Assembly (NCBI RefSeq): GCF_014644295.1
Contig: NZ_BMKK01000007.1
Coordinates: forward strand, 1-64,000
Direction: 5' to 3'
Source: Emticicia aquatilis
GTDB lineage: Bacteria > Bacteroidota > Bacteroidia > Cytophagales > Spirosomataceae
DNA length: 64,000 nucleotides
Below the pieces are notes generated by a model, which was given only the letters and a program-made list of their open reading frames with translations, searched no databases and was not told the DNA's origin. Within the stretch, counting starts at the first letter, position 1; each line of letters begins with the position of its first letter. Position numbers and translations under genes: made by a program. Positions 26,073 to 40,631 of the stretch are shown in pieces.

Positions 26073-27200
26073 TTATAAAATCAATGGGGTGAAGTTAGTC
26101 AAATTTTCGTCAAAAACAACAAATTTAGCAGGAAAGCCTTCGGCAATTTGTCCGATTTTGGCATCAATACCCAAAGCTTTTGCAGGGCGAATGGTTGCCA
26201 TTTTAATGGCTTCTTCGAGCGAAATTCCAACTTTTTCAACGGCATTTTTCACGCAATCGGCCAGCGAGACTGCTGCTCCTGCCAGATTCCCTTCCGAGTT
26301 TCGGTACTGCCTATTTTCGAGGTAAGCATCAAATTCTTCCCATTGAAATTGTTTTACCTTTTCACCTACAAAAAGAGCATCCGAAATCAAGAAAAGTTTG
26401 TCTTGCTTGATTTTATAGGCAATGCGGGCGGCGGCATAATCGCAATGAAAACCGTCTAAGATAATTGGAGCGTAAACTTCTGGGCTATCGAAAGTTGCAC
26501 CCACAACCCCAGGCTCACGGTGACCCATTTGTGTCATGGCATTGTAGAGATGCGTACAAAGCGTAATGCCTTGGTTATAAGCTTGTTTTGCTTGTTTGTA
26601 GGTAGCGTTTGAATGCCCAAGTGAGATTTTTATGCCGCTTTCGAGCAGCATATCAATTTGTTTGGGCGTAAAGTTTTCGGCGGCGATGGTCATTAATTTG
26701 ATAATTCCTTTGCCGTATTTTATGATTTCTTCTAACTCGTTATTACTTGGTTTTTTGATATATCGAGCCAAATGAGCTCCACGTTTAGCAAGATTCAGAA
26801 ATGGTCCTTCGAGGTGCATACCAAGTACGCCTGAGTTTGGGTTTTTCTCTAAAAAATTGCGAGTAGCTTCGATTCCTTTCAAGATATTTTCGAGCGGCGA
26901 AGTAATGAGTGTAGGCAGGACGTGCGTAGTACCAAGTTTTAAGCTCGACTCATAGATATCTTCGATGGTTTCTTCGTTGGCGTGTTGAGTAAAATAAAAC
27001 TTTTCACCACCATTGATATGCGTGTCAACAAAGCCTGCTGAGATATGTTTGCCTGCCAGGTCCATGGTTTTTGCGTCAGAGTGGAACGCCACCCGCCTGT
27101 GGTCAGACGTTGAAATTCTCCCATTTTCGATAATAACTGATTGATTTTGAAGGACTTCCGTCCCTGTGTGAACAGTGGTGTTTATGATGATGGTTTGCAT
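26073..27200 (-). CDS. nagA: N-acetylglucosamine-6-phosphate deacetylase
   Basis: A 375-residue amidohydrolase of the amino-sugar pathway that converts GlcNAc-6-P to glucosamine-6-P. Visible motifs in order: FVDTHINGG (near 58-65), the metal ligand Glu131 in HLEGPFLN, SLGHSNATY, CTHLYNAMTQ with the REPGVVG loop, DGFHCD and the catalytic Asp in LISDAL. Length and motif order are standard. It has a very unusual leader: an intrinsic-terminator hairpin whose U-run touches the start codon (see 27201-27232). No nagB lies adjacent. Confidence 0.9.
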   Translation of the reverse strand: MQTIIINTTVHTGTEVLQNQSVIIENGRISTSDHRRVAFHSDAKTMDLAGKHISAGFVDTHINGGEKFYFTQHANEETIEDIYESSLKLGTTHVLPTLITSPLENILKGIEATRNFLEKNPNSGVLGMHLEGPFLNLAKRGAHLARYIKKPSNNELEEIIKYGKGIIKLMTIAAENFTPKQIDMLLESGIKISLGHSNATYKQAKQAYNQGITLCTHLYNAMTQMGHREPGVVGATFDSPEVYAPIILDGFHCDYAAARIAYKIKQDKLFLISDALFVGEKVKQFQWEEFDAYLENRQYRNSEGNLAGAAVSLADCVKNAVEKVGISLEEAIKMATIRPAKALGIDAKIGQIAEGFPAKFVVFDENLTNFTPLIL

Positions 27201-27274: not shown

Positions 27275-27595
27275 TCATAAGCGTTTGTTTTGGTCCAAGT
27301 AGATTTGGTTTTTAACCATTGTCAGTTTTCGGCGAGAAACCTCTAAGATTTTGCCAGTTGTAAGCTGCACAGTTGCTTTTTTACCGATTTGATTGAAGTT
27401 TTTAATAAAATCGGGATTCAATAAATACGATTTATGTACACGCAAAAAACCATTCAATTGAACATCACTTTCGTATTTTTTGAGTGTAAATGATGAAACC
27501 ATCTTTTTCCCATTTTTTAGATGGAAAATAGTGTAATTAATGTCGGCTTCGAGATACGTTATCTCATTGTTTTCGGGAGTTTTGAGGGGTGTCAT
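27275..27595 (-). CDS. LytTR DNA-binding domain protein
   Basis: A 106-residue protein that is essentially one LytTR domain: ITYLEADINYTIFHLKNGKK, then LNGFLRVHKSYLLNPDFIKN and VSRRKL. It lacks a receiver domain and any membrane segment, so it is a stand-alone transcription factor whose activity cannot be controlled by phosphorylation in cis. It lies 35 bp downstream of a NarL-type regulator gene on the same strand, and the two are probably co-transcribed. The target could include nagA downstream (inference from position only). Confidence 0.8.
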   Translation of the reverse strand: MTPLKTPENNEITYLEADINYTIFHLKNGKKMVSSFTLKKYESDVQLNGFLRVHKSYLLNPDFIKNFNQIGKKATVQLTTGKILEVSRRKLTMVKNQIYLDQNKRL

Positions 27596-27630: not shown

Positions 27631-28263
27631 TTAAACAAGCTGCCAACGGTGGGCAAAATTGACGATACTCGCAACATTGCGAGCGTTGAGTTTTCGAGTG
27701 ATATTCTTTCGATAAGTATCAACCGTAAATTCACTTACGCATAGTTTTTCGGCGATTTCGGCTGATAGAAATTCGAGAGCAATGAGCCTGATTACTTCTA
27801 ATTCACGAGTGGTGAGTGAGTAGCGAGCCACGAGTTCGTGCTGGTATTCGGTAGTAAGGCTTCCAAAAAGTGATTCTTTGGCAAGTTTGATTTTTAGTCC
27901 ATTATAGACTTTGTTGATACATTCGATGAGGTACGTCTGATTGCTACATTTTGAGACAAAACAATCAGCAAGAGCGGAGATTTTTTTTAGACAGGAAGCG
28001 GCTATCGAATCATGTAAAATCAAGATTTTACCAGTGTAAATATCTTTTAGTCTTTTTTGAAGTGTTAAATCTCCCTGAAAGAAAAAATTGGCATCAATGA
28101 TTAGAACATCAGAAGGCGATTTTGGAAGAGAATTAATTAAATCCCGATTATTGTTGGCAATTCCGACAATCTGGAAGTTATCGGATAAAGCCAACATCAT
28201 CGACAATCCCTCTGCAAAGAGTTGATAACTATCAGCAAGGAAAAGTTTGACTTTAGGGTTCAT
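27631..28263 (-). CDS. NarL-type response regulator with a degenerate receiver
   Basis: A 210-residue regulator; the start at 28263 (MNPKVKLFLAD) is chosen over an upstream ATG because it opens directly with the first receiver strand. Phospho-acceptor Asp57 (LIIDANF) and Lys105 (VSKCS) are present. However, the usual acidic pair is Asp11-Ser12 (LADSYQ), and the Thr/Ser switch position appears replaced in ILILHDS. A LuxR helix-turn-helix with SLTTRELEVIRLIALEF and YRKNITRKLNARN closes the protein. It is divergent from the TPR histidine kinase, with a perfect dyad in the shared region, and is the obvious partner candidate. Confidence 0.82.
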   Translation of the reverse strand: MNPKVKLFLADSYQLFAEGLSMMLALSDNFQIVGIANNNRDLINSLPKSPSDVLIIDANFFFQGDLTLQKRLKDIYTGKILILHDSIAASCLKKISALADCFVSKCSNQTYLIECINKVYNGLKIKLAKESLFGSLTTEYQHELVARYSLTTRELEVIRLIALEFLSAEIAEKLCVSEFTVDTYRKNITRKLNARNVASIVNFAHRWQLV

Positions 28264-28348
28264 AGCAACAGTAGTTTTGAGCATCGAAGTAACGATACAA
28301 ATCTCCGTTAAGCTACGCTACGGTTCAATACTGCCTTGCCATGATTTT

Positions 28349-28370
28349 ATCTACTGTCTGGACAGTAGAT
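28349..28370. promoter_or_regulatory. Perfect dyad in the divergent regulator/kinase intergenic region
   Basis: ATCTACTGTC (28349-28358), TG, then GACAGTAGAT (28361-28370): a perfect 10-2-10 inverted repeat without a T-run on either side. Its place between divergent regulator and kinase starts suggests an operator, perhaps for the NarL-type protein itself. Confidence 0.5.
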
Positions 28371-28437
28371 TGTGAGAAAATGTTTGATTTTTTAGATAAA
28401 TTCAAGTATTTTCAAAAGTCAATTGCCGAACCCTACC

Positions 28438-30357
28438 ATGAAACGACTGCTACTATTTTTATTACTACTTATTTCAAATCTAATTTTTGCTCAACAACAG
28501 CGAAAACTTGATAGCTTAAAGGCTGTTTTGGCCAAATTGCCAGTTGAAGGAAAATCCTTATCAACTGACACAATGAGAGTGAAGTTACTTTGTGAGATGG
28601 GAGAGATACTAATATCAAAAGATACATCAGTATTAATTTTTACTAAGGCGATCGATATTTCTCGAACTATCGATTGGCCTTATGGTTTAGTTTTGTCTCA
28701 AAATCTCTACGGGAAAAAATTAAAAAAACAGAATAACTTCTTCAAAGCGGAAGAGTTTTTTTTTAAATCTTTGACCCTATCAACTAAAAATAATTTTATT
28801 GCTCAGAAAGCATATTCACTCCAAAATATTGGCGATATTTATAGTATTTCAAAAAAACCAAGCGTTGCTTTAGGGTATTATCAGGAAGCACTAAAAATGT
28901 ATAAATCAATCAATAATAAAAATGGAGTTCTTCTGTGTTATAATAATATGGGGATTGCTTACACCCGACTTAATGATTTTGTAAAAGCATTAGATACCCA
29001 TAATTATTGTTTGAATTTAAGTATAGAGTACATTAATCGCCATTTCATGGGGCTATCACATCATAATATTGCTAATATAAACAGGCTGCAACAAAATTAT
29101 GAAGTAGCTAAAGCAAGTTATGAGAAAGCAATCGAAATTTATTTATCAGTTGGAGATACTGAGCTTGAACAACTCGCATCTGCCTATACAGGTTTGGCTG
29201 AAATATTTTTAAATCAAAAAAATATGGTACTTGCCAAGAAATTTGCGTTTTTGGCCATTAATACAAATAATTCAGCTATTACATCAACTTTTATCAAAGC
29301 AAATGATGTATTACTGAAAATATACAGAGAAGATGGTGATTATATGAATGCTTATCTTATTAGTGAGAAGATTAGAGTTAAGCAAGATAGTTTGAATAAT
29401 ATCGAGAATGAAAGGCGACTTGCAAGTGCGAAGTTTGAGTATGACCTCAATATAAAATCAGAAGAATTAAATCTTCAAAAAGAACGGCAAAAATGGTATT
29501 TAGGGATTGGACTTGCTGTATTGCTTATTTCATTGGTTGTTATAAGGGGTAATATTATTTTGAATAAAAAGAATAGATTAATTGAGGCTCAAAATGGTGA
29601 AATTGAACTTTTAAATTCTTCCTTAGAAAAGAAAGTTGAAGTACGTACAGCAGAATTGAAAGATGCAAACATTGAGTTATTAAGAAAAAATAAAGAAATC
29701 GTTGAAGCTCTTTTCAAGGGTAAAAAAATTGAAAGACAAAGGGTTGCGAGTGAACTTCACGATAATTTAGGGAGTACTTTATCGGCATTAAAGTGGCGTT
29801 TGGATGCTTTAAATATGGAAAATTTAAACCCAAAAGAGCAGAAGTTGTATAAAAGTATTCAAGATATGATGAATGATGCTTACTCAGAAGTCAGATTAAT
29901 CTCTCATAATCTTATGCCAACACAACTTCAAGAAAAAGGGTTGATTGGTGCTTTACAAAATTTTATCAGTGAAATAAGTTCAAATACTAAATTTGTGATT
30001 GATTTCGAAAGTAATTTCAATGCTTCGATTCTTGATGATAAAATTTCGCTTGAAATTTATAGTATCTGCATGGAGTTACTCAATAATGTCTTAAAACATT
30101 CAAAAGGTTCAGAGGCAAAACTTAGTATTTTAACTGACGACGATAGTTTAATAATTGAGGTGTTTGATAATGGGATTGGAATTGATATGAATAAAATTGA
30201 AAATTCTTCTATGGGTATCAACAATATCAATGCAAGGGTAAAATCGCTCAATGGAAAATTTGAAATTAAAAATCAATTTTCTGGAGGAACACAAGTTAGG
30301 GTTGTTTTTGATTATGAATTGTTAGAGAATTTTAGAGATGGGGTTGTTGAATCATAA
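28438..30357 (+). CDS. TPR-containing sensor histidine kinase (HisKA_3 family)
   Basis: A 639-residue kinase. The ATG at 28438 gives a signal peptide (MKRLLLFLLLLISNLIFA). A periplasmic TPR array (about 50-340) is followed by one transmembrane helix (about 353-375), a coiled coil (about 378-425), the HisKA_3 motif ERQRVASELHDNLG with phospho-acceptor His441, and an HATPase domain with Asn550, DNGIGID (577-583) and GGTQV. It should phosphorylate NarL-type regulators. One gene for such a regulator is divergent (27631-28263) and another heads the lanthipeptide-like operon. Its last 46 bp overlap the 3' end of the convergent HopA1-LanC gene. Confidence 0.85.
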   Translation: MKRLLLFLLLLISNLIFAQQQRKLDSLKAVLAKLPVEGKSLSTDTMRVKLLCEMGEILISKDTSVLIFTKAIDISRTIDWPYGLVLSQNLYGKKLKKQNNFFKAEEFFFKSLTLSTKNNFIAQKAYSLQNIGDIYSISKKPSVALGYYQEALKMYKSINNKNGVLLCYNNMGIAYTRLNDFVKALDTHNYCLNLSIEYINRHFMGLSHHNIANINRLQQNYEVAKASYEKAIEIYLSVGDTELEQLASAYTGLAEIFLNQKNMVLAKKFAFLAINTNNSAITSTFIKANDVLLKIYREDGDYMNAYLISEKIRVKQDSLNNIENERRLASAKFEYDLNIKSEELNLQKERQKWYLGIGLAVLLISLVVIRGNIILNKKNRLIEAQNGEIELLNSSLEKKVEVRTAELKDANIELLRKNKEIVEALFKGKKIERQRVASELHDNLGSTLSALKWRLDALNMENLNPKEQKLYKSIQDMMNDAYSEVRLISHNLMPTQLQEKGLIGALQNFISEISSNTKFVIDFESNFNASILDDKISLEIYSICMELLNNVLKHSKGSEAKLSILTDDDSLIIEVFDNGIGIDMNKIENSSMGINNINARVKSLNGKFEIKNQFSGGTQVRVVFDYELLENFRDGVVES

Positions 30358-32543
30358 AGTTGTAGTAAAAAATAACCAACCCCCGCAATACCATCATATA
30401 AACCAGGATTATAAAAATCATGGCCAAATTGAGTCGGTGGGAAGTGCCCGTAATTGAGGTATTTTTCGATAATATAGTCTGCTATTTTTTGAGACTCATC
30501 AAATCTAAAAGTCGTATTTAAATGACCCTTACTGACGAGTCGTTTAATTAGATAGACTATTTCTAAAAGTCCCAATATTCCGTATTCGTATTCTTGGGTA
30601 TCTTGGTTATAAGACATGAAATTGCATATATTGCTGTCTTTTGTATGGATAAATACGTAGTTCAGACAAAAATGCTTGATTAAAATATCTATTTTCAATA
30701 CTGCCTCAATTTTAATATCACCCCCGCCAGCAATCAAGAAATCTAATATTTCTAATCGATATTCAAGTAATTGTATAGCTTTAGAAGTACTCAATTTATC
30801 AATATTTTGGTTTTCAGAAATCAGTTGTGTTTCCAGTAGTTTATGGTAGGTTCCTAAATCATCAATATTACTTTTATATTTGAGTTTTACCAGACAAAAC
30901 AATATTTTAGTGGTATTTACAGCACCTTTTTCTTGTGCGTAAATTAGACATCCTATTAGTTGTTGCTTTATACTATAGTCAAGTTTTTTTATGAATAAGT
31001 CACATTTTAAGATTCCAATGATTTCCTCAAGTTCTTTATCAATGAGTGAGTAATTAGCTTTTTCTATGTAAAGCTCAATTTTTTTGATAAATATCTGAGC
31101 GATTTCATCTATTTTTTTACTTATTTCCTTTCCTAAGATTCGGTCAGGTGAGTCGGGTAATGTATTGATATATGAAAGAGAAGAGTAAATACCAGCTAAC
31201 CCCAAATAAAAATCTTGACTTTTATTTGAAGTGATTTGAGCATTTAATAAACTTCTTATTATACCATTACGCATTTCTATAAAAAAACTATCTGGATTAT
31301 ATACACAGAGTTGGGTATAAAACTTAACAATTCCAGCCAATCCATCAAACAGACTGCCATTACAAATTACTGCCCGAATAGATTTTTTTTGAAAAGTAGC
31401 TTTTGTCCAAGTGCATTTTTCTCCCTTTGTATCCCAGATAGCTTGATTTGCTAACTGATTGGCGATTGATTCTGCGTGGTATAATTTTGACTTATCAAGT
31501 TTCCAACTTACTAAAGTTGTCTGTGAAAAGTTAATTTTTTTTAAGTCTTTTGGTAGAATTGATTTAGGTTTTAAATGAAAATTTTCAAAATCATATTCGA
31601 TATCTATGATATCTATAACCTCTTGAGTAGTAGGAAGTTTTTTATTAGAAATAAGATAGTTGATTACTACACTTGTAACATAGTTTATCCTCGACTGTCC
31701 AAAACTATCATTATTATTAGGGTCGGAGGGTTCTTCGGCAAAGCCTATTCCTGGCCATAATTCATGAGTAAACATGGGTGTTTCATGCCTTAAAGAGGGT
31801 TTCTCCAAAACATCAATTATTTTTAAGGCTCGTAAGAGTCCACGTTTTTCAACATAAAGCACAATACTATCTGCCCTGCAAAACTTTATTTGTTTATAAA
31901 AAAGTTTAAAGTAAAAACTTACTTTTGCCTCGTTCAACTGCAAAAGTAAAGCATGAACAAACTCTAATAGTTTCTCATAAGATAAAACTTGGGCATCTAC
32001 ATTGAAATAAAACCTAACTACATCATCAACATCATTTGGGTAAGTTTTTCCGTAAAAATAAGCCCAGTCCGAATCTTTTTTAAACTGAAACCCCGAGTTT
32101 TCAAAGATATTGATGAGTGAGCCTTTCTTTAATTCCTCGTATGGTTTATTGAGCGTAATACCATTGCGGTTAAATCTTTTCGTTACGAAACCTTTGTGTG
32201 CTTGAATCACATCACTGTTTTTTACTTCCTTATCAACAATCCAATTTTCGTTGAGTGCCGCAGGATTTACACGTTTACTAATCTCCCACAGTTCGCTCGC
32301 AAAAACAGCATTGTTCGATTCATTTATGGTTTCTCTTAGTTCGGCTTTGAAAGTATATAAGTGAGCGTACCAATAGCTTCCTATTTTGGCAATTAATTCC
32401 TCTTTTTTTTCAGTAATTGAGGCTTTTTCCTTAAAACTCTTACCATAATTTATCAAACCTGTAGTTGAATCGAATTTTACATTTGCCAATAAAATTCCGA
32501 GATTTCTCTCATTAAGTTCATATTGGGTTAATCGATTATTCAT
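30312..32543 (-). CDS. HopA1-domain lyase fused to LanC-like cyclase domain
   Basis: A 743-residue two-domain protein. Residues about 130-295 match the HopA1 family: VRFYFN (Arg177), FKLF (Lys213), CRADSIVLY (Arg223, Asp225), ELWPGIGFAEEPSD and DSFGQSR. In class V lanthipeptide and thioamitide pathways the HopA1 protein eliminates phosphate from phospho-Ser/Thr. Residues about 390-731 show LanC-like repeats: GSLFDGLAG (396-404), FYLGLAG (445-451), YEYGILGLLE (652-661) and PGLYDGIAGVGYFLL (713-727). The zinc-binding W-C-x-G and C-H-G motifs of LanC are not found; the C-H-G position reads E-Y-G. It overlaps the kinase gene by 4 bp (ATGA). The DNA is visibly AT-rich, suggesting acquisition. Confidence 0.75.
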   Translation of the reverse strand: MNNRLTQYELNERNLGILLANVKFDSTTGLINYGKSFKEKASITEKKEELIAKIGSYWYAHLYTFKAELRETINESNNAVFASELWEISKRVNPAALNENWIVDKEVKNSDVIQAHKGFVTKRFNRNGITLNKPYEELKKGSLINIFENSGFQFKKDSDWAYFYGKTYPNDVDDVVRFYFNVDAQVLSYEKLLEFVHALLLQLNEAKVSFYFKLFYKQIKFCRADSIVLYVEKRGLLRALKIIDVLEKPSLRHETPMFTHELWPGIGFAEEPSDPNNNDSFGQSRINYVTSVVINYLISNKKLPTTQEVIDIIDIEYDFENFHLKPKSILPKDLKKINFSQTTLVSWKLDKSKLYHAESIANQLANQAIWDTKGEKCTWTKATFQKKSIRAVICNGSLFDGLAGIVKFYTQLCVYNPDSFFIEMRNGIIRSLLNAQITSNKSQDFYLGLAGIYSSLSYINTLPDSPDRILGKEISKKIDEIAQIFIKKIELYIEKANYSLIDKELEEIIGILKCDLFIKKLDYSIKQQLIGCLIYAQEKGAVNTTKILFCLVKLKYKSNIDDLGTYHKLLETQLISENQNIDKLSTSKAIQLLEYRLEILDFLIAGGGDIKIEAVLKIDILIKHFCLNYVFIHTKDSNICNFMSYNQDTQEYEYGILGLLEIVYLIKRLVSKGHLNTTFRFDESQKIADYIIEKYLNYGHFPPTQFGHDFYNPGLYDGIAGVGYFLLQLYDSTTPSLKFSNNS

Positions 32544-33514
32544 AATTCTTCAAAAGCTATGTTTAGATTCGATACTTTTTGGGCTTTGTTATCATCGAAA
32601 CTTCCTTCGGTTACACTTCTCAGGATTCGCTTTAGCTTCGCGAGTAGAATATATTTTTCAAGCAAAGACTTATCGCTGTCAGAAGTAACGATTTTTGATT
32701 TTAGGATTTCATTAAATTCCTGAAACTCTTGCGAAGGAAATGAGTACTCAACATCACTGATTAACCAAGCATAGTCCCACAGTGGATTACCAAATTGAGC
32801 AAATTCATAATCTAAAAAGTATAATTCTCCTTCTGTATAGACAATATTACTTAGTGAAAAATCACCATGAATAAGTACTTTATAGCCAGTTTCCTTACCC
32901 CATTTTTTATATTCCTCATTAATGAATTGTTTGAATGGTTCTCCAATGATTAACCAAAATTGCTGTATAAGCGAACTACTGACTTTGGGTTCTGGAACTG
33001 AAATCGGAAATGCTAAATTTAAACCCGAAACTGGAATGTTTTTTTCTGCATAATTATGCACTTCATTAATTTTAGAAAATATCCTATCGGCTACAGAATT
33101 GAAATTTAGACTTTTATTTTTACCTGTTTTTTGCTGAATATCTTTCAAGACTGTAAAAAAGTTATCGCCGTTTACATATTTTCTAACGTATATTAGCTTT
33201 TCTTCATCAATAGATGTCTTTAAAGTTTCGATACAATTTTGGGAACTATTCAATATGAGTTTTTCTTCAAAAATACAAGTTAAATAAGCATCTTTTTTGA
33301 GAGCTAATTTTTGTTCTTCCGCAATTTTATAGGCTTGTTTTACTACTCTACCATCATTTATTGTATTACCATTTTCATTTCTGAATCTAATCAAAAATGT
33401 ACTATTCAATGATTCTTCCTGACGAGCCTCAACAAGATTATCGAAAATCCTGCCTTCGTCAATAAAGCCATTCGAATACAGATAATAAATTACGTTTTGC
33501 AGTGTAAGTATCAT
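32540..33514 (-). CDS. APH-type Ser/Thr kinase of a class V-like lanthipeptide pathway
   Basis: A 324-residue protein of the aminoglycoside phosphotransferase fold. The catalytic loop is HGDFSLSN (Asp218, Asn223) and the metal-binding Asp235 lies in FLDYEFAQFGNPLWDYAWL. The N-lobe is short and irregular. Paired with a HopA1 protein, such a kinase phosphorylates Ser/Thr of a precursor peptide (LxmK in lexapeptide, TvaC in thioamitides). An antibiotic or small-molecule kinase would be the alternative if it stood alone, but the overlap with the HopA1-LanC gene argues for peptide modification. Confidence 0.75.
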   Translation of the reverse strand: MILTLQNVIYYLYSNGFIDEGRIFDNLVEARQEESLNSTFLIRFRNENGNTINDGRVVKQAYKIAEEQKLALKKDAYLTCIFEEKLILNSSQNCIETLKTSIDEEKLIYVRKYVNGDNFFTVLKDIQQKTGKNKSLNFNSVADRIFSKINEVHNYAEKNIPVSGLNLAFPISVPEPKVSSSLIQQFWLIIGEPFKQFINEEYKKWGKETGYKVLIHGDFSLSNIVYTEGELYFLDYEFAQFGNPLWDYAWLISDVEYSFPSQEFQEFNEILKSKIVTSDSDKSLLEKYILLAKLKRILRSVTEGSFDDNKAQKVSNLNIAFEEL

Positions 33515-33525
33515 GTTTTAGTTTC

Positions 33526-34107
33526 TCAGCCGATGATTACACCATTGTCGATAGGTCTTTGAGTAGATGCACCTGAGCATACAGGAGGCAAAATCTGTGA
33601 TGAAGACTCTTCTTGACCATCAATTGTTATTATCATTTCTTTAACAGTTTGAGCTATTGGAGTGAATATATAATTACCACTTTTCACGTAGGTCACCCTT
33701 CTTATTTCTGTTTTTTTTGCAAGGCAAAGGTTGATTACTTTAATATTATTCTCGTTGCTTTCAACCAAGGTTTCGATACCATCAATTTCCCACGAGTTAT
33801 TGAGAATATAAACAAAGTGAGTACTCGTAGGCTTTTCTATTTGTGGATTAATATATTTTTCGATAAATCCTTTGACTGGCCCAATAGACGAAGGCTCACG
33901 CTCTTGTTGTGGGGCGAAAGTTAATCTCAACCATTTGTTGCCATCATTAAGCATCGGATTTGCTTTTTCTGCGTCAGTAAGTTCAAAAAGTGCTACTCCT
34001 TTAAGTTGCACGTGGGTCCCTGCATCAATTAAAGCTCTAATTTCAGGCTTTTTAGTGAAGACGTTTTTCTTTTTGTCAATAACATTGGCTTTGTTCACAA
34101 ATCCCAT
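33526..34107 (-). CDS. Unknown 193-residue protein, candidate lanthipeptide precursor with long leader
   Basis: I do not recognise a family. The protein has no signal peptide and no membrane helix. Residues 1-160 look folded (mixed strands, e.g. THFVYILNNSWEIDG). The last 30 residues change character: Ser168-Ser170, Pro174-Pro175, Cys177, Ser178, Ser181, Thr182 and a small polar end (DNGVIIG). Cys177 with the preceding Ser triplet or the following Ser/Thr would allow one or two lanthionine rings. The gene lies 11 bp upstream of the kinase gene and 29 bp downstream of the response-regulator gene. Alternatives are an accessory or immunity protein; the precursor role is inferred from position and tail only. 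Confidence 0.5.
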   Translation of the reverse strand: MGFVNKANVIDKKKNVFTKKPEIRALIDAGTHVQLKGVALFELTDAEKANPMLNDGNKWLRLTFAPQQEREPSSIGPVKGFIEKYINPQIEKPTSTHFVYILNNSWEIDGIETLVESNENNIKVINLCLAKKTEIRRVTYVKSGNYIFTPIAQTVKEMIITIDGQEESSSQILPPVCSGASTQRPIDNGVIIG

Positions 34108-34136
34108 TTCAGGTATAAATTTAAATTGTTAAAAAA

Positions 34137-34784
34137 TCACTTCAAAAATCCATTCTTCATTGCCCAACGCATCAGTCCAAGTGCAGAATTTACACCTACT
34201 TTCTTCATCAAATTGCGGCGATGAGTTTCAACCGTCGTGACGTTGATGAAAATCCGTTCAGCAATTTCGATGTTGCTTAGGTCTTGTATGACGAGCTGCA
34301 TTACTTCAATTTCTCGTGGTGTAAGAGGTATATTCTCCGAAATCTCGTCTTTTCCACTTGGCGTATTCTGATTGGGTAACTGAGCCAATCGCATTACTAC
34401 CGCCTCACTAAAATACCGCTGACCATTTGCTACTGTTTTTAGTGCCAGTTCAAGTTCTTTTCGTTCGGTTCGCTTCATGATATAGCCGTCAACTCCTGCA
34501 ACCAGAGCTTCTTTGATAACCGCTGGTTCTTCCGACATCGTTAGTAGCATCACTCGCACCTTCGAGTATTTCTCTCGTACTCTGATGGTAGTTTCAATAC
34601 CGTTCATGAGCGGCATGTGTAAATCAGCCAGTACAATATCTACTTCGTTGGTTTCCAAAAATGTTAGTACTTGCCAACCATTATTGGCTGTGCCTACAAC
34701 CTCAATGCCATCCATTGTATCAATTAAAATACTCAAACTTTCGGCTACAATCACATGGTCGTCGGCAATCAGAACTCTAATCAT
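34137..34784 (-). CDS. NarL/FixJ-type response regulator heading the lanthipeptide-like operon
   Basis: A 215-residue regulator with a complete receiver: acidic pair Asp8-Asp9 (IADDH), phospho-acceptor Asp54 (VLADLHMP), Thr82 and Lys104. The LuxR helix-turn-helix (about 150-210) has LTPREIEVMQLVIQDLSN and VETHRRNLMKKVGV. It ends only 29 bp before the candidate precursor and I see no promoter between, so it is probably co-transcribed with the biosynthetic genes and may control them by feedback. The TPR histidine kinase at the far end of the locus is a possible partner. Confidence 0.85.
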   Translation of the reverse strand: MIRVLIADDHVIVAESLSILIDTMDGIEVVGTANNGWQVLTFLETNEVDIVLADLHMPLMNGIETTIRVREKYSKVRVMLLTMSEEPAVIKEALVAGVDGYIMKRTERKELELALKTVANGQRYFSEAVVMRLAQLPNQNTPSGKDEISENIPLTPREIEVMQLVIQDLSNIEIAERIFINVTTVETHRRNLMKKVGVNSALGLMRWAMKNGFLK

Positions 34785-35184: not shown

Positions 35185-36147
35185 ATGTTGAGTCGTGTCG
35201 CCAATTCTATTTATTGGATTAATCGCTATATTGAGCGAGCCGAAAATTATGCCCGTTTTGTAAGCGTAAACCTTAATCTAACCCTCGATGCTCCCGGAAT
35301 TATGACCGCCCAGTGGGAGCCGCTTCTCATCGCTACGGCCGATAACTATGGTTTTTTTGAGCATTATTCAGTAGCCGACCGTGATACTGTAATTGATTAC
35401 ATGACTTTCGATAAACGTAATCCGAATTCGATTTATAGTTGTTTGGCCAACGCCCGTGAGAATGCCCGCACCATTCGTGAGAGCATCACGAAAGAAATGT
35501 GGGAACACATTAATATTTTCTATTTAAAAATCTCTGAAACTCAGTCGGCAAGAAACTGGGAGGTAGAGCAATTATTGCAGTTTTTTGAAGAAATCAAAGA
35601 AGGTTGCCAGTTGTTTTTTGGTATCATTGATTCGACCGTAACTCGTAATGAGGGTTTTCATTTTGGTCGTTTAGGACGCCTGCTCGAACGAGCCGATAAA
35701 ACTTCTCGTTTCTTAGATGTGCGTTATTTTACACTTCTACCCGACGACCAAGCGATGGGTTCTCCACAAGAACTACTTATCTGGACATCAGTACTGAAGT
35801 CGGTAAGTGCTTTCAATATGTATCGCCAGCAGCACCGTGTCATTAATCCTTCGCATATTGTAGATTTCTTGGTGCTTGATAAAAGCTTTCCTCGATCAAT
35901 ATTCTACTGTGTGCGTCAAGCAGAGCTTTCTTTGTATCAAATTTCGGGTCGAGATTTAACCAGTGGTTATTCAAATTTAGCCGAAAAAGAAATGACACGT
36001 TTGCGTCATGAAATCGAATTCACCGAGGTAGGAGATATTTTCAAGAAGGGACTTCACCCGTATTTAGATGAGTTTCAGATAAAAAATAATACAGCAGCGG
36101 CCGAAATTTTCAATACCTATTTCGACCTAAAACCTGTTGAAGCATAA
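35185..36147 (+). CDS. Alpha-E domain protein (DUF403)
   Basis: A 320-residue, almost all-helical protein. It opens with the diagnostic MLSRVANSIYWINRYIERAENYARF and has WEHINIFYLKI, the GRLLERADKTSRFLDVRY segment and FLVLDKSFPRSIFYCVRQAE. Alpha-E proteins occur with circularly permuted ATP-grasp ligases, transglutaminases and Anbu proteases in a conserved cluster thought to make or process a small peptide. The Anbu and transglutaminase genes follow, but the ATP-grasp gene is not next to it in this window. Confidence 0.88.
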   Translation: MLSRVANSIYWINRYIERAENYARFVSVNLNLTLDAPGIMTAQWEPLLIATADNYGFFEHYSVADRDTVIDYMTFDKRNPNSIYSCLANARENARTIRESITKEMWEHINIFYLKISETQSARNWEVEQLLQFFEEIKEGCQLFFGIIDSTVTRNEGFHFGRLGRLLERADKTSRFLDVRYFTLLPDDQAMGSPQELLIWTSVLKSVSAFNMYRQQHRVINPSHIVDFLVLDKSFPRSIFYCVRQAELSLYQISGRDLTSGYSNLAEKEMTRLRHEIEFTEVGDIFKKGLHPYLDEFQIKNNTAAAEIFNTYFDLKPVEA

Positions 36148-36180
36148 AATCGGAAAGAACTAAGGACAACTGAGAAGGAA

Positions 36181-36214
36181 AATTATCAATTTTTAATTCC
36201 CAATTATCAATTAG
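36181..36214. repeat. Stutter word before the Anbu start
   Basis: AATTATCAATTTTTAATTCC followed by CAATTATCAATTAG: a repeated AATTATCAATT unit right before the start codon at 36220. The same unit forms the hairpin at 14905-14980. Confidence 0.5.
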
Positions 36215-36219
36215 AAAGA

Positions 36220-36951
36220 ATGACTTTTTGTCTTGGAGTAAAAGTAGCTAAAGGAATTGTGGCCATTGCCGACACGCGCATCACATCGGGAAGCGAGGTT
36301 TCGAGCAATAAAAAAGTTTTTGTGCATCAATCGCAGCATCATTCGTTGTTTATCATGACAGCTGGCTTACGTTCGGTGCGTGATAAAGCCATTACTTATT
36401 TCAAAGAAGTTTTGGAAGAACAAGATACCAAATTCGATAAGTTATACAAAGCCGTAAATGCCTTTGGTGATATGGTGAAGCGTGTGGCTGCCGAAGATAA
36501 GGCATCACTGCGAGAAGCTGGTTTATCGTTCAACTTGTCGGCTGTTATTGGCGGACAACTCGAAAAAGACGACGAACACAAATTGTATATGTTGTATCCC
36601 GAAGGAAATTGGATTGAAGTAACCGAGGGTTCGCCGTTTATCATCATTGGTCAACCAAATTATGGAAAACCGATTTTATATCGAAACCTAAAGTACAATA
36701 CTTCATTGCAGGAAGTGCTGAAACTCGGCTTTTTGGCATTTGATTCTACTCGTGTGAGTGCCAATGATGTCGATTTTCCGATTGATGTGATTTTGTGTGA
36801 AAAAGATAGCTTTAAAATCAACGAGCAACGTTACGAAAAAGCCGATTTAGAACAGATTTCGTATCAATGGAATGCCTTGCTGAATGCTTCCGTGCAGAAA
36901 CTCCCAACCGATTGGATGGAACCAATTTTCTCGAAATCGCTTGAAATTTAA
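36220..36951 (+). CDS. Anbu-type proteasome-like peptidase
   Basis: A 243-residue Ntn-hydrolase of the proteasome/HslV superfamily. The N-terminus is MTFCLGVKV, so Thr2 becomes the nucleophile after Met removal. GIVAIADTRITSGSEVSSNKKVFV carries the Asp and Lys of the active site, and IMTAGLRSVRD follows. Length and neighbours (alpha-E, transglutaminase) fit Anbu, the ancestral beta-subunit, rather than HslV; no hslU-type ATPase is nearby. It assembles into spirals or rings in other bacteria and its substrates are unknown. Confidence 0.85.
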   Translation: MTFCLGVKVAKGIVAIADTRITSGSEVSSNKKVFVHQSQHHSLFIMTAGLRSVRDKAITYFKEVLEEQDTKFDKLYKAVNAFGDMVKRVAAEDKASLREAGLSFNLSAVIGGQLEKDDEHKLYMLYPEGNWIEVTEGSPFIIIGQPNYGKPILYRNLKYNTSLQEVLKLGFLAFDSTRVSANDVDFPIDVILCEKDSFKINEQRYEKADLEQISYQWNALLNASVQKLPTDWMEPIFSKSLEI

Positions 36952-36973
36952 GTTGAAATATTCATAAGTTTAG

Positions 36974-37056
36974 TTTATCACGGAGGTTGCAAGTGTATAA
37001 GTTTTCATAGAGTTTTCTCTGTGAAACTTCGTGCTGTTCTGTGTCTCCGTGGTAAA
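36974..37056. repeat. Hairpin repeat (TTTAYCAC-GGAGG family, copy 2)
   Basis: TTTATCACGGAG (36974-36985) pairs with CTCCGTGGTAAA (37045-37056), with partial inner pairing. It is related to copy 1 at 18787-18868, but here lies between two co-directional genes of the Anbu cluster. Confidence 0.55.
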
Positions 37057-37105
37057 TTTACAAAATCATTTTTAAGATTAATTCTTCCCATCTCACTCAA
37101 CAAAA

Positions 37106-37945
37106 ATGATTTTAAACGTCGAACATACCCTTTATTACAGCTATTCCAACTCAGTTTCGCTTACGCCTCACACAATCTATCTTACGCCAAAAGCTTCGCC
37201 CAATCAGGAAATTGTGTCTTTTCAGCTTGAGATTTTACCTACTCCAAACATTCTTTATAAAAATATTGATGTAGAAGGTAATGCTCAATCGGTGGCGTTT
37301 TTTAATACACCAACTGATAGACTGAGTTTTCGGGCGAAGGTTGAAATTGTTTCGGAAGAAGTAAATCCATTTCATTTTATTTATTATCCATTTGGAGCTG
37401 AAACACTGCCTTTTAAGTACCCCGAAAAAGAATTGGTACTTTTACAGCCTTATTTGACCGACGATGGCATCACAACGCTCATCGACCAGTTTGCTCGACA
37501 AATTGCCGCCGAAGCTAACTGGAAAACAACCGATTTTCTGACCCGCATTTCAAAATATATTCGATATAATTTTTTGTATGAAAAACGTCTCGAAGGTGCT
37601 GCTCACTCGCCCGAAGCAACGTTGATTTCTCGAAAAGGCACTTGTCGAGACTATGCCGTTTTGATGATTGCGGCCTGCAAAGCATTGGGTTTGGCGGCTC
37701 GATTTGTGAGTGGCTATTGCTACGGAAGCGAACTGCAAGCCCACGAACTTCATGCGTGGGTAGAGGTTTATTTACCAGGTGCAGGTTGGCGAGGTTTCGA
37801 CCCGACCGAAGGCCGAATTACTGATTTTCACTATATTGCATTGGCTTCTTCGGCCCAAGCAGAGTTGATAAATCCGATTCGAGGTGGTTTCAGAGGAAAT
37901 GCCGTTTCGTCATTAAATGCTTTTGTTGATATTCGGCAGAAATAA
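37106..37945 (+). CDS. Transglutaminase-like protein of the Anbu cluster
   Basis: A 279-residue cytoplasmic protein. An N-terminal bacterial transglutaminase-associated domain (about 1-110) precedes the papain-like core with Cys180 (SRKGTCRDYA), His216 (HELHAWVEVY) and Asp232 (GFDPTEG): a complete catalytic triad. It probably acts as a peptidase or transamidase on the product of the alpha-E/ATP-grasp pathway. It has no signal peptide, in line with a cytoplasmic cluster. Confidence 0.87.
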   Translation: MILNVEHTLYYSYSNSVSLTPHTIYLTPKASPNQEIVSFQLEILPTPNILYKNIDVEGNAQSVAFFNTPTDRLSFRAKVEIVSEEVNPFHFIYYPFGAETLPFKYPEKELVLLQPYLTDDGITTLIDQFARQIAAEANWKTTDFLTRISKYIRYNFLYEKRLEGAAHSPEATLISRKGTCRDYAVLMIAACKALGLAARFVSGYCYGSELQAHELHAWVEVYLPGAGWRGFDPTEGRITDFHYIALASSAQAELINPIRGGFRGNAVSSLNAFVDIRQK

Positions 37946-38048
37946 AAAATCAGAATTTTTATTTACTTTAGCAGAAAAATGGCGTTTTCTGCCAAACATA
38001 ACACTAACATCACTAAAATAACCTAAACTAATTACCAAATCTTTGATT

Positions 38049-39305
38049 ATGGGCATCAAGAACAGACTAATTGTAATGAATTTTCTCCAGTTTTTTATTT
38101 GGGCATGTTGGCTCATTACGATTGGAGCGTACTGGTTTCAAAATAAAGGTTGGTCAGGGGCTGAATTTGGAGCTATTTTTTCGACGATGGGAATTGCCTC
38201 ATTGTTTATGCCAACCCTCGCTGGTATCATTGCCGATAAATATATCAACGCCGAACGACTCTACGCTATTTTGCATTTGCTCGGAGCTTTGGTGTTAGTT
38301 TATATTCCACAAGTCGATAATCCGAATGATTTCTTTTGGGCAATTTTGCTTTGTGTGATATTTTATATGCCTACTTTGGCACTCTCTAACTCAATTGCTT
38401 ATACGATTCTGAAAAACAATAATACCACAGACCTCGTGAAAGATTTTCCACCGATTAGGGTTTGGGGAACGGTCGGTTTTGTGGTGGCTTTGTGGGTGAT
38501 TAGCCTTACTCACAACGAAACTTCAGCCAATCAATTTTATATTGCAGCGGCTTCGGCGGTTGTCTTGGCGATTTACTCACTTACCTTGCCTAAATGTCCG
38601 CCTTTGGCTGGTACGCCTGACAAAAGAAGTTTTGTTCAGATATTGGGTTTAGATGCTTTCAAGCTATTTAAAGACCCGAAAATTGCGATTTTCTTTATTT
38701 TTGCGATGTTTTTAGGTGCTTCGTTGCAGCTAACCAATGCCTATGGCGATACCTTCTTGCATGATTTTGCGAATGTTGATATTTATAAAGATTCCATTGC
38801 CGTAAAATATCCTGCCATTATTATGTCAATCTCTCAGATTTCTGAGACGCTATTTATCTTGGCGATTCCATTCTTTTTGAAGCGTTTTGGTATCAAGCAA
38901 GTAATGCTAATCAGTATGGTTGCGTGGGTGTTGCGTTTCGGGCTTTTTGCTTACGGAAACCCAAGTGATGGACTTTGGATGATTATTTTATCGTGTATTG
39001 TCTATGGAATGGCTTTTGACTTCTTCAATATTTCGGGTTCGTTATTTATTGAAACTTATACTGACCCTAAAATTCGTTCGTCGGCTCAAGGTTTGTTTAT
39101 GATGATGGTAAATGGTTTTGGAGCAGTTTCGGGAAGTTTGATTAGCGGATTCGTGATTCAGAAATACTTCACATTGGCCGATGGTACAAAAACTTGGACT
39201 GGTATTTGGCTTACATTTGCTATTTATTCTTTAGTTGTAGCCATTCTTTTTGCCATCTTGTTTAAACACAAACACGAAGAAGGAGTAGAGGTGAAAGGAC
39301 ACTAA
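38049..39305 (+). CDS. Nucleoside:H+ symporter-type MFS transporter
   Basis: A 418-residue inner-membrane transporter with 12 predicted helices. The ATG at 38049 is used rather than an in-frame TTG two codons upstream. WACWLITIGAYW in TM1 and the KDFPPIRVWGTVGFVVALW segment between TM4 and TM5 are characteristic of the NupG/XapB nucleoside symporter family (PF03825). In Bacteroidota such proteins may also carry other small metabolites. It is convergent with the M16 peptidase gene across a perfect hairpin. Confidence 0.82.
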   Translation: MGIKNRLIVMNFLQFFIWACWLITIGAYWFQNKGWSGAEFGAIFSTMGIASLFMPTLAGIIADKYINAERLYAILHLLGALVLVYIPQVDNPNDFFWAILLCVIFYMPTLALSNSIAYTILKNNNTTDLVKDFPPIRVWGTVGFVVALWVISLTHNETSANQFYIAAASAVVLAIYSLTLPKCPPLAGTPDKRSFVQILGLDAFKLFKDPKIAIFFIFAMFLGASLQLTNAYGDTFLHDFANVDIYKDSIAVKYPAIIMSISQISETLFILAIPFFLKRFGIKQVMLISMVAWVLRFGLFAYGNPSDGLWMIILSCIVYGMAFDFFNISGSLFIETYTDPKIRSSAQGLFMMMVNGFGAVSGSLISGFVIQKYFTLADGTKTWTGIWLTFAIYSLVVAILFAILFKHKHEEGVEVKGH

Positions 39306-39310
39306 TAATG

Positions 39311-39394
39311 AATTTTGAATGATAGAATGAGTGACTGATAGAATAAATGTATGTTTTATTATTCACTCATTCTATCATTCACTCACTCAAAATT
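39311..39394. terminator. Bidirectional hairpin of stutter words
   Basis: GAATGATAGAATGAGTGA (39317-39334) is exactly complementary to 39363-39380, with AATTTT/AAAATT pairing outside. The arms repeat GAATGA internally. It lies between convergent MFS and M16 genes, reaching the M16 stop codon. Confidence 0.65.
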
Positions 39395-40631
39395 ACTTCT
39401 CCGCCCTATAATACATCGTTGAGCAGTTTTCTTTTCTGAATATTCTTTTTGCCATTGCTTGTAAACTTTGTGGGTTTACCTTAGCAATTTTTTCGGCATC
39501 ATCATTGCACCAATCGGCGTTGCCTGCATTGGCAGCAAAAGCCAAATTCATGGCACGGTTCAATAGTTCTACTTCAGCAAAAGCCAATGTCGATTCCGCT
39601 TGATTTTTTACTTTCTGTAATTCACTTTCTGACAGCGTATTATCTCGTAATTCGGCAACAACTTCTTCAATTGCTGCATCTGCTTCTTCAATACTTACTC
39701 CTTCGTTGAGGTTTCCTTGAATCATTAATAAACCTGGGTCGAGCGAAGCTGTTACATAGCCCGAAACATTATTGAATAGTTGCTTTTCTTTAACCAATGT
39801 TGTGTAAAGTCTCGATGATTTTCCACGACCTAAAATATCACTCAATAAATCGGCATCATAAAACTGTTCGTCGAATCTCCCCGGCATATTATATGCTTTA
39901 TAAATAGCATTTAAAGGCACTTTTGCCGAAGTTTCTAAGAATTTCGGGGCTGTTTGTGGGGCTTCTTGTGGAAGATTTCGTACGTATTTCTCACCTGCCG
40001 GAATCGGCTCAAACCATTTCTTACATAGGTCTTTTACTTGCTCAACTGTTACATCGCCCGCAACTACCAAAATAGCGTTGTTTGGTAAATAATATTTATA
40101 GAAAAAGTGCTTCACATCGTCCATTGTGGCTTCTTCGATATGGCTGATTTCTTTACCAATCGTTGCCCAACGGTAAGGGTGTTTTTCGTAAATTAATGGA
40201 CGAAGTTTTAACCAAACATCACCATAAGGTTGATTCAGGTAACGTTGCTTAAACTCCTCGATTACTACTTTTCGTTGTACTTCAAGCACTTTTGGGTCGA
40301 ATGATAAACTCATCATACGGTCAGATTCGAGCCAAAAAGCAGTTTCGATATTCTGAGCGGGAAGCGTGATATAATAATTGGTAATATCGGGCGAGGTAAA
40401 AGCATTGTTTTCGCCACCTACTTTTTGCAGAGGTTCGTCGTAAGACGGGATATTTTTTGAGCCACCAAACATCAAATGTTCAAAAAGGTGGGCGAAACCT
40501 GTTTTATTTTCATCTTCGTCACGTGAGCCGACATTATATAGAATATTAAATGCCGCCATTGGGGTTGTATGGTCTTCGTGGACGTAAACTTCTAAGCCGT
40601 TTTTTAAAGTAAAATGTTGGTAGTTAATCAT
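39393..40631 (-). CDS. M16 family zinc peptidase (pitrilysin-like)
   Basis: A 412-residue single-unit M16 peptidase. The inverted zinc motif is His48-L-F-Glu51-His52 (GFAHLFEHLMFGG), with the distal Glu in VVIEEFKQR at 125/126. The C-terminal half-domain contains the GRGKSSRLYTTLVKE segment of active M16B proteins, with the Arg-Tyr pair typical of catalytic subunits. There is no signal peptide, so it acts in the cytoplasm or leaves by another route. It resembles bacterial processing proteases that work as homodimers. Confidence 0.88.
   Translation of the reverse strand: MINYQHFTLKNGLEVYVHEDHTTPMAAFNILYNVGSRDEDENKTGFAHLFEHLMFGGSKNIPSYDEPLQKVGGENNAFTSPDITNYYITLPAQNIETAFWLESDRMMSLSFDPKVLEVQRKVVIEEFKQRYLNQPYGDVWLKLRPLIYEKHPYRWATIGKEISHIEEATMDDVKHFFYKYYLPNNAILVVAGDVTVEQVKDLCKKWFEPIPAGEKYVRNLPQEAPQTAPKFLETSAKVPLNAIYKAYNMPGRFDEQFYDADLLSDILGRGKSSRLYTTLVKEKQLFNNVSGYVTASLDPGLLMIQGNLNEGVSIEEADAAIEEVVAELRDNTLSESELQKVKNQAESTLAFAEVELLNRAMNLAFAANAGNADWCNDDAEKIAKVNPQSLQAMAKRIFRKENCSTMYYRAEK

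Follow-up and report, generated by a model that had tools for sequence, protein, structure and literature searches.

What does a pair of class V-type lanthipeptide dehydratases do when the LanC part attached to them lacks its zinc-site motifs and a histidine kinase is exchanged together with them? The locus that raises this question lies in Emticicia aquatilis (Bacteroidota; Spirosomataceae), within positions 1 to 64,000 of the forward strand of contig NZ_BMKK01000007.1; this whole stretch of 64,000 nucleotides is called the window here. An earlier note had described four adjacent genes in the window, for a response regulator (RR1), a 193-aa small protein, an APH-fold kinase and a HopA1-LanC fusion protein, and had read the two enzymes as a complete dehydration-cyclisation pathway. 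It overlooked the neighboring histidine kinase (HK) gene and the exchange of the cassette between species, both of which alter the likely function. The reading we favor, to which we give an even chance, is that class V-type lanthipeptide dehydratases here form the basis of a polymorphic signalling cassette, whose product would be the small protein dehydrated, and perhaps crosslinked through His or Cys, near its C-terminus. It is the first choice because the HK is exchanged with the substrate and the enzymes while the regulator stays, as a ligand-receptor pair needs and as a plain antibiotic pathway would not. Action of the enzymes on the small protein is a much safer claim than the signalling role.

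The dehydratase pair and its LanC-derived domain

The genes and domains that matter most are the following.

34137 to 34784, minus strand: RR1, a LuxR-type response regulator of 215 aa (Pfam PF00072 and PF00196), the operon's first gene and the constant part of the system
33526 to 34107, minus strand: the 193-aa small protein, predicted substrate (signal precursor), without a Pfam match; a small open reading frame (ORF) precedes the kinase in all 32 loci compared
33529 to 33606, minus strand: predicted modified tail of the small protein, residues 168-193, SSSQILPPVCSGASTQRPIDNGVIIG, a Ser/Thr-rich end with one Cys
32540 to 33514, minus strand: APH-fold kinase (LanK-like), 324 aa, PF01636 (E = 4e-8), catalytic motif HGDFSLSN...DYE
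31641 to 32057, minus strand: HopA1 domain (PF17914; LanY-like phospho-Ser/Thr lyase) with R177, K213, R223 and Y230; best PDB folds LxmY 9dk3/9dk1/9dk2
30312 to 31496, minus strand: LanC-derived C-terminal domain, residues 350-743, without zinc-site motifs; LanC profile matches at 350-467 and 711-734
28423 to 30357, plus strand: TPR histidine kinase (Pfam HisKA_3 and HATPase; hydropathy), convergent to the HopA1-LanC gene
28374 to 34136, no strand assigned: exchanged cassette (HK, HopA1-LanC, kinase and small protein), delimited by blastn against locus L080

The coordinates and strand of the four operon genes, the 4-bp overlap of the kinase and HopA1-LanC genes and the gaps of 11 and 29 bp on either side of the small gene all agree with the earlier note. 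Its family assignments are borne out as well: the 743-aa protein matches PF17914 at residues 163-301 (E = 4.3e-21) and LANC_like PF05147 (E = 1.7e-9), and the kinase has the APH fold. The region is AT-richer than its surroundings, as had been noticed (GC 30-34% over 28001-34000 versus 37-41% in the 4 kb on each side), and the ORFs and Pfam matches inside the cassette include no transporter or protease gene.

Comparisons below draw on 32 loci, the window included, unless another denominator is given. Kinase and lyase form the adjacent PF01636-PF17914 pair that defines a class V synthetase. Against the NCBIfam LxmK equivalog NF038156 the kinase scores 13.7 bits, below the cut-off of 315. The pattern HxDxxxxN..DxE is found in the kinases of 27 loci, with Asn in place of His in L054, L055 and L057 and no match in L062 and L063, where kinase, HopA1 and LanC remnant are a single protein of ~975 aa. 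R177 and K213 of the HopA1 domain are present at all 32 loci, Tyr at 230 in 28 and Arg at 223 in 25. These residues (R177, K213, R223 and Y230 in the window) correspond to R187, K219, R229 and Y236 of CaoY, in which, according to PMC9486802, loss of R187 or K219 nearly abolishes phosphate elimination, loss of R229 weakens it and Y236 is conserved. The spacing is the same in both proteins, 10 residues from Lys to Arg and 17 from Lys to Tyr. An AlphaFold model of the 743-aa protein, made from 13 aligned sequences, has a mean pLDDT of 70.6 (157 residues fall below 50, including much of 557-681). Its top Foldseek matches are the LxmY chains of the lexapeptide LxmKY complex (9dk3, 9dk1 and 9dk2; E = 5e-11 to 1e-9), and the next are LicM2, HopA1 (4rsx), CylM and LanCL proteins.

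Neighborhoods lacking the kinase had been named beforehand as grounds for giving up the dehydratase interpretation. The kinase gene lies directly before the lyase gene in 29 loci, is fused to it in two and is separated from it by a 133-aa ORF in one (L079), so the comparison did not refute it. The small gene overlaps the kinase gene or stops at most 20 bp before it in 18 unfused loci. The core of the earlier proposal stands: class V-type dehydratase parts are joined to a LanC-derived domain in a member of the Bacteroidota, and the 193-aa protein is very probably their substrate. Its dehydration is only slightly less probable.

The cyclising half of the proposed pathway does not stand with the dehydrating half, for which the HopA1 catalytic residues are kept. 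The NCBIfam LanM model TIGR03897 matches residues 351-482 at 64.8 bits, far below its cut-off of 304. A reference profile of 437 positions was built from the standalone LanC proteins of 14 class Vb-like loci (eight from the window's own family, the others L067, L073, L068, L070 and two from the order, L090 and L091); it contains WC[HN]G at position 294 in 14 of 14 sequences, LCHG at 347 in 13 of 14 and a catalytic-type His at 223. The proteins of 24 loci, the window included, match this profile at E <= 1e-3. All matches with an independent E-value of at most 0.1 end by position 153 or begin from 371, outside the zinc-site motifs and the His. CHG is absent from the last 320 residues in all 32 loci, and only L089 has a WC, an isolated one. 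The window protein exceeds its relatives in length and retains a helical region in this part, yet its C-terminal 320 residues hold no CHG, WC or [SAG]HG string, and the LanC with zinc ligands that characterizes class Vb is missing. That the fusion is a working cyclase, as had been proposed, is therefore not supported.

These observations bear on the possibility that the locus is an ordinary lanthipeptide pathway, in which the HopA1-LanC protein dehydrates and cyclises the 193-aa precursor to a (methyl)lanthionine, probably with antimicrobial activity. The family matches and folds fit such a pathway, as do the Cys in the window tail and the zinc-type LanC of related class Vb-like loci. LanKC (class III) enzymes, moreover, cyclise without zinc, as reported in PMC10604976, so a zinc-free cyclising role is possible for the window protein. 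It is hard to imagine in the shortened relatives: the HopA1 proteins of L088 and L089, at only 292 and 263 aa, have no room for LanC. The LanC catalytic core is unmatched in all 32 loci, the cassette has no immunity or export gene, the HK is exchanged along with it and most tails are free of Cys. An ordinary lanthipeptide pathway is consequently unlikely. A plain class Vb lanthipeptide, considered at first, was set aside after the zinc-site and Cys checks came out against it.

Of 395 genomes sampled across the phylum, one contains PF17914, that of the window, and a profile built from 14 relatives matches 45 of the 222 genomes of the family. An order-level search matched 18 of 390 genomes, 16 of them in the same family. 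In our tally of fetched regions, 33 of the 45 genomes share the order small protein, kinase, HopA1(-LanC) and convergent HK, usually behind RR1, at 34 loci (one genome has two). The other 12 are one with a broken copy (G438), two with only the form in which the HK lies between small gene and kinase, eight with class Vb-like loci, and G518, a weak match whose region was not fetched. A separate scan yielded 10 loci, with the window layout in Arcicella, a Cytophagales metagenome-assembled genome (MAG), Runella zeae, Flectobacillus longus and Runella limosa and class Vb-like loci in Saprospiraceae, Pirellulaceae, Paenihalocynthiibacter and Thalassobius; at a Calothrix locus the fetched stretch shows kinase and HopA1 genes without LanC.

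From 50 fetched regions, 39 loci were tabulated (window included), and the 32 used for tail counts exclude those whose HK separates the small gene from the kinase (L034, L035, L042, L045 and L052) and the near-copies L043 and L060. L071 coincides with L082, and L064, L065, L066 and L069 with L041, L033, L036 and L059; none is counted twice. The class Vb-like L039, L047-L051, L053, L056, L061, L090 and L091 and the broken L084 stand outside the table. In 33 of the 39 loci the HK gene follows immediately downstream in convergent orientation; it lies between small gene and kinase in five, and a contig end intervenes in one; by the script's rule, RR1 is upstream in 27. In a tree of the HopA1 domain, the 32 loci fall on one side of a branch (support 84/87) and the class Vb-like and HK-between loci on the other. 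A scan of viral contigs for a mobile element gave six pattern matches and confirmed no close relative, and plasmids gave only distant matches (nine records, none covering 80%).

The small protein and its tail

The 193-aa protein is predicted with a pLDDT of 33, and a homologue occurs in only one other of the 222 family genomes. Across the 32 loci the small proteins are 106-193 aa long; a profile comparison of their 18 clusters gave best probabilities of 96% and 93% with only 6 of 153 pairs above 10%, which does not establish common descent of all. A short motif nevertheless recurs at their ends. [ST]x(2,3)[HC] is found within the last 30 residues of 28 of the 32 small proteins, versus 12.6 +- 2.6 for shuffled tails (0 of 5000 shuffles reach 28), and weighting by the 18 sequence clusters gives 15.0 of 18 versus 7.3 +- 1.7 (0 of 5000 as high). 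The motif was seen in the first 18 loci (14 of 18) and recorded before 14 further loci were fetched, and it holds in all 14 of these. It is carried by 11 of 147 other like-sized ORFs of these loci, a control set that came from a mechanical ORF caller and need not consist wholly of genes. Elsewhere it occurs in the tails of kinases (8 of 32), HopA1 proteins (7 of 32), HKs (10 of 39) and response regulators (1 of 31), and in 12 of 120 internal 30-mers of the small proteins.

Every one of the 32 tails contains His or Cys. The 28 tails with the motif divide into 21 with His ([ST]x(2,3)H) and seven with Cys, and none has both. Two forms recur, T[FY][ST]x(1,4)H in six tails and [ST]xPP[HC] in five (three His, two Cys); in the latter, otherwise similar tails have His in L059, L075 and L079 and Cys at the same place in L081 and L082. 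The last 30 residues of 23 small proteins contain no Cys and four proteins are wholly free of it, which excludes lanthionine as the general product. The window protein has one Cys and no His in its tail, and it lacks the Ser/Thr followed by His at +3 that would mark a histidinobutyrine. Its homologue L032 keeps the ILPPV of the window tail and then has His rather than Cys, followed by Thr-Thr. Precursors of class V were sought, in PMC9486802, among proteins of fewer than 110 residues with C-terminal Cys and Ser/Thr; the window protein is longer, at 193 aa, though its tail has both.

Taken together with the enzyme families, the tail motif suggests a ring between Ser/Thr and His or Cys. We consider such a crosslink an evenly balanced proposition for the family and a rather doubtful one for the window member. 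It might be instead that the pathway stops at dehydration, with dehydroalanine (Dha) or dehydrobutyrine (Dhb) as the end product, which would make the tail reactive or stiff or act as an irreversible phospho-switch, and with His and Cys serving recognition or metal binding. The missing zinc site and the versions with HopA1 and hardly any LanC (L088 and L089) are compatible with this, and HopAI1/OspF-type lyases act alone on phosphorylated kinases (PMC9486802). The fixed distance of 3-4 residues from Ser/Thr to His/Cys and the interchange of His and Cys are, in contrast, what a ring needs, and dehydration alone is improbable.

The histidine kinase and exchange of the cassette

The HK gene and the HopA1-LanC gene, on opposite strands, share the final 46 bp of the latter, and the HK start may be the ATG five codons downstream of the annotated 28423. 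By hydropathy and Pfam, the protein has a hydrophobic N-terminus, a TPR part, one hydrophobic segment at ~356-382, and HisKA_3 and HATPase domains. In a tree of the catalytic part, taken here and for identities as the last 245 residues, 31 cassette HKs and three of 25 other HKs of the window's genome form one clade with support 100/100. The cassette and RR1 are flanked by these genes.

27631 to 28284, minus strand: second response regulator, constant flank (PF00196/PF00072; 86% identity in L080)
27275 to 27595, minus strand: small LytTR DNA-binding protein, constant flank (PF04397)
26073 to 27200, minus strand: NagA-like amidohydrolase (Pfam), left boundary of the site, a backbone gene in 11 of 11 genomes of the genus
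35185 to 36147, plus strand: Alpha-E protein (PF04168), right boundary of the site, a backbone gene in 11 of 11 genomes of the genus

The sister species G502 keeps this site as L080, where protein identity is 96% for the Alpha-E protein, 95% for RR1, 78% for the LytTR protein and 90% for the NagA-like protein. Nucleotide identity by blastn is 84.7% over 36148-34137, right up to the final base of RR1, and 84.6% over 28373-26000, beginning 50 bp before the HK start. Between these boundaries only two pieces of the HK gene match, of 516 and 100 bp at 65-71%, and protein identity falls to 23% for the small protein, 24% for the kinase, 28% for HopA1-LanC, 28% for the HK sensor and 45% for the HK catalytic part. 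The boundary on the RR1 side is also seen in the pairs L086/L088, L075/L079, L081/L082 and L059/L075, where high similarity extends no further than RR1 or the opening tens of bases of the small gene. At the other boundary it is regained close to the HK start in three of these pairs, and the HK of L081/L082 matches throughout (72%). The pair L076/L077 is graded rather than sharp. Over 11 pairs chosen to have RR1 at least 75% identical, which share members and are not 11 independent events, mean identities are 87 for RR1, 61 for the HK catalytic part, 46 for the HK sensor, 42 for HopA1-LanC, 35 for the kinase and 31 for the small protein; RR1 ranks highest in all 11 and the small protein lowest in nine. 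Within the genus, the site is empty in G494, holds a response regulator and an HK without payload beside the Alpha-E gene in G493 and has other HK/response regulator genes in G495 and G497.

Such extreme variability of a single chromosomal site, which may also be empty or hold other genes, would suit a polymorphic weapon too, a bacteriocin-like or kin-discrimination effector diversified by competition, with the HK and regulator only timing its production. The cassette offers no candidate for an immunity gene, PADLOC matches neither the enzymes nor the small protein, and, as expected of a receptor, the HK sensor changes along with the cassette beside a constant RR1; we regard a weapon as a poor prospect. 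Anti-phage defence was considered and rejected: beyond the lack of PADLOC matches just mentioned, weak matches of the response regulator and HK to CARF and TPR models look generic.

As a signalling cassette, the locus would work in the following way, judging from the families and catalytic residues of its enzymes. The kinase would place phosphate on Ser/Thr of the small protein's C-terminal tail, and elimination by the HopA1 domain would leave Dha or Dhb. The tail motif suggests that in most relatives a His, sometimes a Cys, 3-4 residues further on adds to the alkene and closes a small ring, a histidinobutyrine/histidinoalanine or a (methyl)lanthionine. The LanC remnant without zinc may serve as a docking or folding module rather than as a zinc cyclase. 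The exchange of the HK with the cassette suggests that the adjacent HK uses its TPR sensor to detect the modified protein, or its tail, after release from the cell; this HK would then signal to the constant RR1. For such a pheromone-like role we hold the chances to be level.

Several observations weigh against this. Four tails lack the motif, those of the window, L032, L033 and L036; Cys177 of the window has no Ser/Thr at -3 or -4, the nearest Ser being seven residues before it and Ser/Thr lying 1, 4 and 5 after. At L088 and L089 the small ORF next to RR1 was picked after its tail had been viewed, and with the other ORF the count becomes 27 of 32. The motif is not rare by itself, since HK tails carry it in 10 of 39 cases, and it could be a metal-binding or recognition feature. 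A crude hydropathy test finds a secretion signal in none of the 32 small proteins, and with no transporter or protease in the cassette, export lacks an explanation. At 20-25%, identities come close to the floor of global alignment, and the pairs share members; in L044/L074 identity is higher in the HK sensor (79%) than in the catalytic part (66%), contrary to the ComP pattern, and an identity control with two other own-genome HKs gave no orthologs to compare. HKs of the same clade elsewhere in the window's genome lie near a response regulator, separated from it by a DUF6169 protein at L149 and by two other proteins at L148, with nothing in between at L150, and in G493 nothing stands between response regulator and HK (L154). 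The HK could answer to another cue, and HK, payload and response regulator may be a general module in the window's genome. By eye, the two proteins at L148 have secretion-like starts.

Outside the cassette, Alpha-E, proteasome-type and transglutaminase-like backbone genes stand in a row at 35185-37945 of the window. Neighbors of these three kinds have been proposed as a peptide-modification system. A protein that looks permease-like by eye and an M16 peptidase follow at 38043-40631, ~5 kb from the operon. The peptidase is probably backbone, since it is also in the L080 flank; M16B peptidases are present in the rosin class V cluster (PMC12291118). A LytTR-like gene lies at most five genes after the HopA1 gene in 11 of the 32 loci. 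In the constant flank just past the HK start, L059, L074, L075, L078, L081, L082 and L085 have a similar ORF of 68-88 aa (Y[TN].GW...G[YF]).

Relation to known systems

With the class V LanK/LanY systems (CaoK/CaoY and LxmK/LxmY) the window shares the APH kinase and PF17914 lyase, the spacing of catalytic Arg, Lys and Tyr and the LxmY fold. Unlike them, it has a lyase fused to a LanC remnant, a substrate of 106-193 aa across the loci and an HK-regulator unit; the operon ORFs include no LanD decarboxylase or LanX, as the AviMeCys (aminovinyl-methylcysteine) pathways of class Va would require. Class Vb (mSmoA) comprises LanK, LanY and a separate LanC, according to PMC12291118. The same three enzyme families are present here, and the LanC part is homologous to the LanC of the 14 class Vb-like loci (L047-L051, L053, L056, L061, L067, L068, L070, L073, L090 and L091), but it is fused, reduced and without zinc ligands, and the tail Cys is mostly replaced by His.

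The class Vb-like loci of the window's own family (L047-L051, L053, L056 and L061) carry kinase, HopA1 and zinc-type LanC as separate genes. In the seven whose upstream region was read (L048-L051, L053, L056 and L061), it holds a precursor-like ORF of 250-278 aa with a conserved N-terminus and a Cys-rich core, and subtilase and PAP2 genes lie near some of them. Just upstream of the kinase, HopA1 and LanC genes in a Pirellulaceae MAG, an ORF with repeats such as EPPTTGGRCS (L070:4979-5239) is likely a multi-core lanthipeptide precursor. In a Saprospiraceae MAG, an open-ended ORF with PTTHHGQANTGKNCP-type repeats before the same three genes (L068:2-280) is possibly a multi-core precursor rich in His and Cys.

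A His ring has a precedent in noursin, where, in the accessible text of PMC10206099, a lanthipeptide synthetase with an unusual cyclase domain makes a His-to-butyrine ring that binds copper. That text names Dhb8 and His11, three apart, which we read as the linked pair. LanKC-Hbt of noursin (class III, Streptomyces) shares with the window an unusual cyclase-type domain; it differs in its kinase and lyase families, which form one polypeptide, and the same text mentions no HK. A noursin-like metallophore, with a copper-binding His/Cys ring and an HK that senses metal status, is very improbable, since the tails have few ligand residues, the cassette has no metal transporter and the hypervariability would be left without explanation.

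The closest parallel in organization is comQXPA of Bacillus, which likewise has a modifying enzyme, a variable precursor modified near its C-terminus, a HisKA_3 HK and a response regulator. Conservation there falls in the order ComA>ComP>ComQ>ComX, with ComX and the N-terminal part of ComP varying most (PMC4008528), and the order RR1 > HK > HopA1-LanC > kinase > small protein runs parallel to it. The pattern of a variable precursor, enzyme and sensor beside a constant regulator is thus present in the window. The components themselves are different: at E <= 1, Pfam finds no prenyl transferase or ComX family in the kinase, HopA1-LanC or small protein, the sensor is a TPR protein with one membrane segment, the HK gene is on the opposite strand and the phylum is another. 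A survey of Bacteroidales clusters for ribosomally synthesized and post-translationally modified peptides proposes signalling for some, one of them with an HK and a response regulator, and the word HopA1 is absent from its accessible text (PMC10352776). Among the literature matches listed, which cover open-licence papers, none describes a HopA1-LanC/HK cassette of this kind.

In its fullest form the signalling reading describes a new family of small-protein pheromones in Bacteroidota, a proposal that we advance tentatively and hold somewhat short of even. Class V-type dehydratases with a dead LanC would make a single ring, mostly to His, near the C-terminus of a hypervariable small protein; each allele would be read by its own TPR HK, with the output regulator constant; and the cassette would move between species as one specificity unit at a fixed site. 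If this is true, it would give Bacteroidota a signalling system based on a modified protein, in which lanthipeptide-type enzymes have been put to the service of signal specificity and His takes the place of Cys as the ring nucleophile in a class V-type pathway. The sister alleles at one site would then provide a ready-made comparison of specificity.

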